Assembly (NCBI RefSeq): GCF_016758115.1
Contig: NZ_WIVG01000002.1
Coordinates: 1-64,000, forward strand
Length of the DNA stretch: 64,000 nucleotides
From: Lactococcus garvieae
Lineage (GTDB): Bacteria; Bacillota; Bacilli; Lactobacillales; Streptococcaceae
Direction of reading: 5' to 3'
Below, piece after piece: positions 33,786 through 35,828 of this stretch. The position numbers and the translations under genes are program-made. Below the pieces are notes generated by a model. It did no database searches and was not told the origin of the DNA. It worked only from the letters and a program-made list of their open reading frames with translations. Position 1 is the stretch's first letter. Each line of letters opens with the position of its first letter.

Positions 33786-33814
33786 TTGGAGAAACACCCC
33801 CAATGACTTATAAT
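33786..33814 (+). promoter_or_regulatory. Promoter of surface-protein gene
   Basis: TTGGAG at 33786-33791 and TATAAT at 33809-33814 are spaced by 17 bases. The ACAAC repeat begins four bases after the -10 element, so the message would start at or inside the repeat. Confidence 0.7.
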
Positions 33815-33817
33815 CAG

Positions 33818-33862
33818 ACAACACAACACAACACAACACAACACAACACAACACAACACAAC
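33818..33862 (+). repeat. Pentanucleotide tandem repeat (ACAAC)9
   Basis: Nine perfect head-to-tail copies of ACAAC (45 bp) are followed by ACACACA. Such arrays change length by slipped-strand mispairing. This one falls in the predicted 5' untranslated leader of the gene at 34029. Confidence 0.97.
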
Positions 33863-33906
33863 ACACATAAACAAGCGGTAAATTGCCGTTCTTTTCTCCA
33901 TGCCCC

Positions 33907-33936
33907 AAAACGTTCCGGATGACTGGGACGTTTTTT
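33907..33936 (+). terminator. Terminator-like hairpin inside leader
   Basis: AAAACGTTCC (33907-33916) pairs with GGGACGTTTT (33925-33934, one G-U) across an 8-base loop and gives six T in a row. It lies between the promoter and the coding region, so it would act as an attenuator for the gene at 34029. Confidence 0.75.
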
Positions 33937-34028
33937 GCCGTGCACCAAAGATAAAACTATTGGTTGTGATTCCCCAAGTCATAAGGCTTCGCACACCCAT
34001 AAAAATTAAAACATAAGGAAGAAATAAA

Positions 34029-35828
34029 ATGTACTCAACAAACAGAAACAGGAAAAAACTAGGAATCCTTTTAGCCATACTCTCCGTTCTGCTGCTCATC
34101 TCAGGGACCTTCGCTTGGTTCTCCTTCACACAGAGAGCTATCAATGACCGCAGTGTCAGTGTCAACTTTGAAGAAGTGGGACGCCTGCACGACTACTTTG
34201 ACCGTGCCTCAGGCAACAAGGACGTCTTCGCCGAGAACTTTGGCGATGCTCCTATCTTGGTGCGCGTAAAACTCCTCGAATACATGGAAATCAATGGCGA
34301 ATCTCTAGTCCAAGCCGACCCACAAGAGGTGGCAGAGGGCAACGCAGTCCAACCCATCAAAGAAGACACGGGCACATGGACGCCTTGGACACCAGAAGCC
34401 TCAGGAAATACAGTTGGTCAACGTGTCGGACCGGGCGCCGTCTTCAATGCCCGTGCCCGCTGGACCGTAGGTTGGACTCCCCGAGCAGCCACAGACGGCT
34501 CTGGGCAGCTGAATGCTCCCTACTTCATGCCGACCTTTAACCGCGCCCGAGATAATCACAAGACAGCCGGTGCAGGCGACGGGCGTGACTGGACCCAGTC
34601 GGGAGAAGAGGCGGATACATCGGCTAGCCCTAACGGAACCAATGCCGGCGCAGATGCCACAGGGGTTACACATCCCGGGAATGGGACAGATGGTTACTGG
34701 AACAACGGCAGCACAGCCACCTCGCTCCTAGGAACACCGCCCGATACAGAAGACGGGACACATACGGCTCGCCAAACCGTCATCCAAGACCAGCCGGTCA
34801 TGTTGCTCAGTCAGTGGAATGCCCTGCCTGTTCAAGAGCGTGTCGGCAACTTCTGGGTGGTGGATCCCCAGACAGGTTGGGCTTACTGGGCCAACCTGCT
34901 CTTCCCAGAGGAAGCCACTTCCTTCCTCCTCGACCAAGCCAATCTTAATACCAGTGGCCTACGTGGAGATATTTACTATGGCATCAAGGGTGTAGCCAAC
35001 ATGGTAGCTAACACCGATGGCGACGTCTCTGCCCTTTGGGATGAAGCCCCAGAAAACCACAGCGACCTTGCCAAGCAGTTAGTAGATGAAGTACGTAATG
35101 GCTTACCTATCCTTGGTGAGATGGAGCCGGGGCAGATTTTCTCTATGCGTGGCACGCAGTATCGATATCTTGAGAATAAGGGGGACGGGAATCATCTGGT
35201 CATTCATGATGCCAGCTTATCTGCTGGACAATGGGGGACGGAGGGAACGACAAGTTACAACGGCTCCATAATTGACAGTAGAATGCGTGACTTCCATGAT
35301 GCGCTACCGAGTGTCATCAGACGACAGGTTCAACCTGTTCAAGCAACATTCCCAGATGATTTTGCCAATGCACCAACAGGGTGGTGGAATCTAGATGCGG
35401 TCCTTGATTTTGGTGGTACGCCCAATAACCCTATAGATCTTTGGGAAGGAGGACATGTTTTTTGGAAGCTGGACATGAATCATTCCTCGAAAACAGAGGC
35501 GATGCGAAATGATATCACTGCCTATACTCCAGGAGGTGAAAAGAAAGCTTTTGCTCTTTCTTTGGCTGATCTTATGAGCGTGTCTGGTCCTAACCTTGGT
35601 TTTCCAGATATGCTTTCAAGAAACGGAGTAAATAGTTCGAGCTGGGCCTTACGTACACGTGCTCGAGATAACGTAGCATGGCTAGTAATAGCTATGCAAG
35701 ATATAAGAGGTAGGGGTGGTCTTCTTGCAACTAATCGTCAACCTATTAATTCATATGATATATTCAATGTTCCTCGCCCCTCCCTCATCCTCCGCGACCA
35801 AGAAGGCGCATGGACCTCTAGTTTTTAG
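34029..35828 (+). CDS. SipW-type signal peptide surface protein, DUF6273-like C-terminus
   Basis: This exported protein has 599 residues. Its N-terminus (basic start, hydrophobic LGILLAILSVLLLISGTFAWF, then SFTQRAIND) has the GTxAWF form of SipW-cleaved signal peptides seen in TasA-like and related matrix proteins. The middle (about 100-240) is Gly/Thr/Asn/Asp-rich and low in lysine. The C-terminal part from about 340 onward (GQIFSMRGTQYRYLENKGDG ... WALRTRARDNVAWLVIAM ... VPRPSLILRD) looks like the DUF6273 type. No LPXTG anchor is seen and no SipW peptidase gene is in the window. Bases 34029-35100 are much richer in GC than neighbours, while 35260-35770 is AT-rich. AAGGAAG precedes the ATG. 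Expression is probably governed by the repeat/attenuator leader. Confidence 0.7.
   Translation: MYSTNRNRKKLGILLAILSVLLLISGTFAWFSFTQRAINDRSVSVNFEEVGRLHDYFDRASGNKDVFAENFGDAPILVRVKLLEYMEINGESLVQADPQEVAEGNAVQPIKEDTGTWTPWTPEASGNTVGQRVGPGAVFNARARWTVGWTPRAATDGSGQLNAPYFMPTFNRARDNHKTAGAGDGRDWTQSGEEADTSASPNGTNAGADATGVTHPGNGTDGYWNNGSTATSLLGTPPDTEDGTHTARQTVIQDQPVMLLSQWNALPVQERVGNFWVVDPQTGWAYWANLLFPEEATSFLLDQANLNTSGLRGDIYYGIKGVANMVANTDGDVSALWDEAPENHSDLAKQLVDEVRNGLPILGEMEPGQIFSMRGTQYRYLENKGDGNHLVIHDASLSAGQWGTEGTTSYNGSIIDSRMRDFHDALPSVIRRQVQPVQATFPDDFANAPTGWWNLDAVLDFGGTPNNPIDLWEGGHVFWKLDMNHSSKTEAMRNDITAYTPGGEKKAFALSLADLMSVSGPNLGFPDMLSRNGVNSSSWALRTRARDNVAWLVIAMQDIRGRGGLLATNRQPINSYDIFNVPRPSLILRDQEGAWTSSF

Follow-up and report, generated by a model that had tools for sequence, protein, structure and literature searches.

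The window, that is, the whole 64,000-nt stretch of DNA analysed here, contains at 34029..35828 of the forward strand a gene encoding an exported protein of 599 residues, which belongs to a multicopy family with a SipW-type signal (BsaA-like). The gene has its own Shine-Dalgarno sequence (AGGAAG, 34016..34021) and is preceded by a leader region composed of a short open reading frame (ORF), a pentanucleotide repeat and two hairpins, all on the same strand. The leader ORF (33803..33922; 39 residues, MTYNQTTQHNTTQHNTTQHNTHKQAVNCRSFLHAPKRSG*) begins with ATG at 33803-33805 downstream of a Shine-Dalgarno GGAG (33788..33791), runs for 39 codons across the repeat and ends with TGA at 33920-33922, which falls in the loop of the second hairpin. 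The repeat inside it, (ACAAC)9.6 at 33818..33865, consists of nine perfect ACAAC units (33818-33862) plus ACA up to position 33865, and is the top tandem array of the window, with a TRF score of 96 compared to 57 for the runner-up. Exact arrays of at least four ACAAC units occur at three sites genome-wide (contigs C40, C42 and C53), and the array is not a chance occurrence, since all three sites precede genes of the same family. The first, weaker hairpin (33874..33890) is followed by the T-rich tail CTTTTC. The second, a candidate terminator or attenuator (33907..33936), has a 12-bp stem, the loop ATGA and six T; its arms AAAACGTTCCGG-ATGA-CTGGGACGTTTT occupy 33907-33934 and are followed by TT, so that the six T lie at 33931-33936. 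Folding of 33866-33945 gave -24.2 kcal/mol with a z-score of -2.7 and the 12-bp stem, and an Rfam search with the leader returned nothing close to any gathering score.

Two promoter-like motifs lie in front of the repeat. The probable promoter of the leader transcript, P1 (33735..33763, +), reads TTCATA-17-TAAAAT with an extended -10 (TGT); written out as TTCATA-17-TGTTAAAAT, it matches 9 of 12 positions, has TG 5' of the -10 element and is located 39 nt upstream of the leader ATG. The putative promoter P2 (33786..33814, +) is made up of TTGGAG (33786-33791), a 17-nt spacer and TATAAT (33809-33814), followed by CAG, and overlaps the Shine-Dalgarno sequence, the ATG and codons 3-4 of the leader ORF. 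The TTGGAG-17-TATAAT motif, the nine ACAAC units and the six-T hairpin had all been pointed out in an earlier note on this DNA, and each was found where that note had placed it.

Profile searches with the 599-residue product found no Pfam match, in addition to weak matches to TIGR04088 and to TIGR04090 (BsaA, SipW-dependent matrix protein; E 1.1e-5). As the TIGR04090 score of 25.3 bits is under the curated cut-off of 60, we call the protein BsaA-like only. It has a hydrophobic, signal-like helix at the N-terminus; against the PDB there was neither a sequence match nor a fold match at E <= 0.001, the latter searched with a model of moderate quality (pLDDT 68). Pieces of the family number 73 in its own genome (G000), where many are truncated at the end of a contig, and 63 in that of Lactococcus ileimucosae DSM 107391 (G015). 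Three more Lactococcus genomes have 20, 19 and 13 pieces, respectively, and the remaining 13 of the 18 have none. Contigs of G000 often end within family members or at the repeat (for example C73, C37, C102, C119 and C97), and the true copy numbers in this genome are uncertain because the family breaks the assembly. A SipW-type signal peptidase (TIGR02228 over the cut-off) is encoded in exactly the five of 18 Lactococcus genomes that hold the family. Such peptidases adjoin shorter family members of about 335 residues at locus L119 (G009:C2:1996200-2003200), and the same adjacency is seen at G000:C53 and C35, G015:C8, G003:C1 and G002:C32; the genome G009 has two of them.

The ACAAC unit is 5 nt long, and therefore the reading frame of the leader shifts with each unit gained or lost. 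In the window sequence, a unit count divisible by three gives the long leader, and any other count gives a short one. With 3n+1 units the ribosome would be in frame A+1, which ends at TAA 33879..33881, 31 nt 5' of the hairpin reference point 33910, and with 3n+2 units in frame A+2, which ends at TAA 33868..33870, 42 nt 5' of it; relative to this point, the three frames end at +10, -31 and -42. The leader stop set by the present nine units is 109 nt upstream of the start of the structural gene. As in the loci of the Streptococcus gallolyticus pil1 type, a non-triplet repeat lies in a leader ORF with Shine-Dalgarno sequence and ATG, a hairpin precedes the structural gene, and the frame set by the repeat puts the leader stop either before the hairpin or in or after it. 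The earlier note had suggested a phase-variation device made of the repeat and the attenuator. Its kind was correctly recognized, but the leader ORF that joins the two elements was missed.

Pattern searches combined with extraction of upstream regions revealed about 40 leader loci, in which GAGG or GGAG is followed by ATGnnnTATAAT and then by a pentanucleotide repeat. They are found in five of the 18 Lactococcus genomes, namely the five that bear the family, with about 6, 8, 10, 8 and 9 loci per genome. The pattern was absent from the 13 other Lactococcus genomes, from 394 other genomes of the order and from the controls. Scans of IMG/VR for the leader gave no match with CAGCA and two with CAACA, both in unrelated contigs. 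In every repeat-bearing leader the repeat is accompanied by ATGnnnTATAAT, an ATG and a Shine-Dalgarno sequence, and nearly all leader loci have GGAG or GAGG 5' of the ATG. The repeat units are ACAAC, CAGCA/ACAGC or AGAGC (the last equal to the GCAGA unit), in 3 to 54 copies. Nearly all leader loci precede paralogs of the one SipW/BsaA-type exported family, the exception being a single LPXTG gene. At this locus, L172 (G000:C44:8600-11500), the leader with (ACAGC)6 and a hairpin lies before a gene (at 910-2454) for an LPXTG surface protein of 514 residues, and the leader cassette is modular in that this target gene is outside the family. Three leader-preceded paralogs, at L104, L105 and L060, have an in-frame stop or are split in two frames; they are possibly decayed copies or recombination partners. 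Across Streptococcaceae, GCAGA arrays occur in 14 of the 245 genomes examined, from 5 of 10 genera. Those of L179-L181 and L200 look leader-like, and others sit inside genes. The arrays of L182, L185 and L186, from other Streptococcaceae, lie apparently within coding sequences, one of them, by eye, apparently a type III restriction-modification gene, and this unit thus appears to be used also for in-gene frame switching.

The leader frames were compared at those 30 hairpin loci in which a position could be assigned to the conserved peptide; the counts are not independent, as the paralogs are related. Frame A (AVDxRxFxxAPKRSG...) reaches the hairpin in all 30 loci, whereas frame A+1 stops 28-34 nt upstream of it in all 30 and reaches it in none. 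Frame A+2 reaches the hairpin in 13 of the 30, which rules out our initial idea that only one of the three frames is ever open; ON and OFF are consequently not always in a ratio of one in three, because two of the three frames reach the hairpin at these 13 loci. On this frame assignment, the present unit number would bring the leader to the hairpin at 12 of the 30. In the APKRSGPLERFFR block, third codon positions account for 7 of 10 variable columns (p = 0.008), and over 15 codons of frame A conservative replacements exceed those in column shuffles (p = 0.036), both values being modest and derived from related sequences. The pairing of the hairpin is maintained among the relatives via compensatory changes, with three of nine pairs changed on both sides. 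Without translation of the leader, it would be difficult to see why a readable frame is conserved.

Repeat numbers vary between paralogs, which is the only level of comparison in collections that hold one genome per species. Two paralogs of G009 that are 98.6% identical over 1237 nt 3' of the repeat have 19 and 31 units, respectively, and paralog pairs of G003 at 94-95% identity have 20 versus 54 and 31 versus 40 units. The window gene has nine units, corresponding to frame A and predicted to be ON, compared to seven units in its nearest paralog (92.5%), corresponding to A+1 and predicted to be OFF.

We propose, with a probability of roughly 0.8, that the locus is a phase-variable leader-peptide attenuator, a contingency locus of the S. 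gallolyticus pil1 type, in which promoter use, translation, termination and switching are those we infer from the DNA. In S. gallolyticus, pil1 and pil3 carry 22 and 13 GCAGA units, respectively, in a leader ORF, and the frame decides whether the ribosome reaches the terminator (Danne et al. 2014, PMC3894217). Transcription in the window would begin upstream of the leader ORF, probably at P1, and ribosomes would initiate at ATG 33803, with slippage in the ACAAC array setting the point at which they stop. With 3n units, as in the present nine, the ribosome would read to the stop in the terminator loop, so that the hairpin could not form and the polymerase would enter the gene of the 599-residue exported protein (ON). 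With 3n+1 or 3n+2 units it would stop 31 or 42 nt earlier, respectively, allowing the terminator to form and leaving the gene OFF or at a basal level. Many paralogs of the clade lie behind the same cassette, and the subset of the family that cells display would therefore change.

Three other readings were weighed against this attenuation model. Transcription might start at the repeat itself from TTGGAG-17-TATAAT, as the earlier note had supposed, in which case repeat length would act on initiation, on slippage or on the stability of the RNA and not on leader translation. The conservation of P2 speaks for such a start: its TATAAT is present in 37 of 37 Lactococcus leader loci, with TTG at fixed spacing in 34-36 of the 37, and the motif TTGAC/TTGGAG-16/17-TATAAT is conserved in nearly all leader loci. 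Other Streptococcaceae genera keep TTGACA-16/17-TATAAT in the same place, but the spacing between ATG and TATAAT is 2 there instead of 3. The motif is therefore conserved as DNA, because TATAAT is retained even though its frame with respect to the ATG differs, and the view that TATAAT represents merely two leader codons is weakened. However, the -35 element of P2 is poor in the window (3 of 6), and a start at the repeat leaves unexplained why every repeat-bearing leader has an ATG with a Shine-Dalgarno sequence, and why one frame always and another never reaches the hairpin. Moreover, mapping placed the S. gallolyticus start 5' of the leader ORF, and expression in the ON state requires translation there (PMC3894217). 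P1 is better placed, since a transcript starting at the repeat would drop the leader Shine-Dalgarno sequence and ATG. P1-like sites are found 39-66 nt upstream of the leader ATG in most relatives, with a conserved -10 and some of them excellent (TTGACA-16-TGTTAGAAT), which is consistent with P1 being the probable promoter of the leader transcript; P2 may be a second promoter whose transcripts bypass the leader ORF. A start at the slippage-prone repeat is not needed, as the leader ORF begins upstream and the repeat sets its frame, and we regard it as unlikely.

The frame might also act on the downstream gene through translational coupling or polarity rather than through transcription antitermination. 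This reading draws on genome G002, whose nine leaders (L120-L128) mostly lack a terminator, yet the frame that extends from the repeat as far as a TGA sharing bases with the ATG of the gene (ATGA) is open in nine of nine, where dinucleotide shuffles gave an expectation of 2.07; in G003 it is open in 4 of 10, with 0.51 expected. None of the nine G002 loci is currently in the ATGA-ending frame. These leaders suggest a translational-coupling version of the device, to judge from their sequences. The Shine-Dalgarno sites of some G002 loci look sequestered, an attractive arrangement, but overall the sequestration did not exceed that in shuffled controls. In the window, by contrast, the ON stop is too far from the gene start, at 109 nt, and a strong hairpin with a U-run lies there, which makes coupling at this locus decidedly improbable. 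As for the third reading, in which the repeat is a neutral microsatellite, the terminator of the leader an ordinary one and regulated switching absent, it would agree with the facts that switching is deduced from sequence and that several loci precede interrupted genes. It would not account for an architecture that recurs at about 40 loci while repeat unit and length vary, for the restriction of the leader to one gene family and one LPXTG gene, or for the existence of a proven counterpart, and we consider it hardly credible.

Besides the leader cassette, a different upstream element is common to 24 other paralogs of G000 and G015. Their promoter, CTCATCAAACACTCATTTCATTTGACC-Tn-ATACTATAGA, hardly varies except in the length of the T-run, which ranges from about 6 to 17. 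The T-run is located between TTGACC and the ATACTATAG element at loci L061-L070, L072, L081-L091, L094 and L108. These promoters resemble a phase-variation device, which would be the second one on the exported family and act at the level of transcription. It seems somewhat probable to us that this one Lactococcus clade draws on a combinatorial repertoire of surface or matrix proteins spread over the whole genome, in which dozens of SipW-dependent paralogs per genome would be independently ON or OFF, either by leader slippage, acting through a terminator or an ATGA overlap, or by the length of the promoter poly-T. If true, it would amount to antigenic variation of the Opa or pilin kind in a Gram-positive gut commensal, with a regulatory RNA device in place of the coding sequence, and would suggest that lactococci, which pass for tame, vary surface or matrix proteins as pathogens do. 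ON or OFF could be predicted per locus from the sequence by units modulo three, and the loci would offer a natural allele series for measuring ribosome-mediated antitermination.

In the proposed mechanism, as in translation-controlled transcription attenuation of the trp type, the position of the ribosome on the leader peptide would decide terminator formation; that position is set by amino acid supply in the trp type, whereas in the window it would be set by heritable mutation of repeat length. Phase variation by the pentanucleotides of S. pyogenes scl2 and the bca repeats of group B streptococci (GBS) involves a repeat situated either within the structural gene or 5' of the promoter. The window locus would share with scl2 the slippage of pentanucleotides ahead of a surface protein of Streptococcaceae, but differs from scl2 and bca in that its repeat is housed in a leader ORF of its own, followed by a terminator. 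The sipW-bsaA biofilm matrix of Clostridium perfringens is of the same broad exported family type (by the weak TIGR04090 match), with a SipW-type peptidase in the same genomes. It is expressed heterogeneously, as the Lactococcus family would be, and according to the accessible part of the report, this heterogeneity arises via a two-component system and PilA2, without repeats (PMC7395162). Unlike C. perfringens BsaA, the Lactococcus proteins are longer and fall under the family cut-off.

The closest counterparts are S. gallolyticus pil1 and pil3, where a pentanucleotide likewise lies in a short leader ORF with a Shine-Dalgarno sequence and a terminator hairpin precedes a surface-protein gene. 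The short frame stops 39-49 bp before the hairpin there and 31 or 42 nt before it in the window, and the ON stop is in or next to the hairpin in both. That switch is supported by variants, a chloramphenicol effect, a terminator deletion, and start-codon and stop mutants, and Ppil1 is heterogeneously expressed in Lactococcus lactis too (PMC3894217). The principle is thus already proven in S. gallolyticus and works in L. lactis. For Lactococcus itself, we found no paper describing the leader device in a literature search that mostly left aside subscription journals. The new features are the scale and the target gene family, two of the units (ACAAC and CAGCA), the stop-start overlap of G002 and the second, poly-T device. 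In Lactococcus the units are ACAAC, CAGCA or AGAGC, and only the last equals the GCAGA unit of S. gallolyticus; the targets belong to a SipW/BsaA-type family with 6-10 leader loci per genome, compared to two copies before sortase pili, and one species has a stop-start overlap in place of the terminator. A switch of two pilus operons in one Streptococcus species is thereby extended to a device at 6-10 loci per lactococcal genome.
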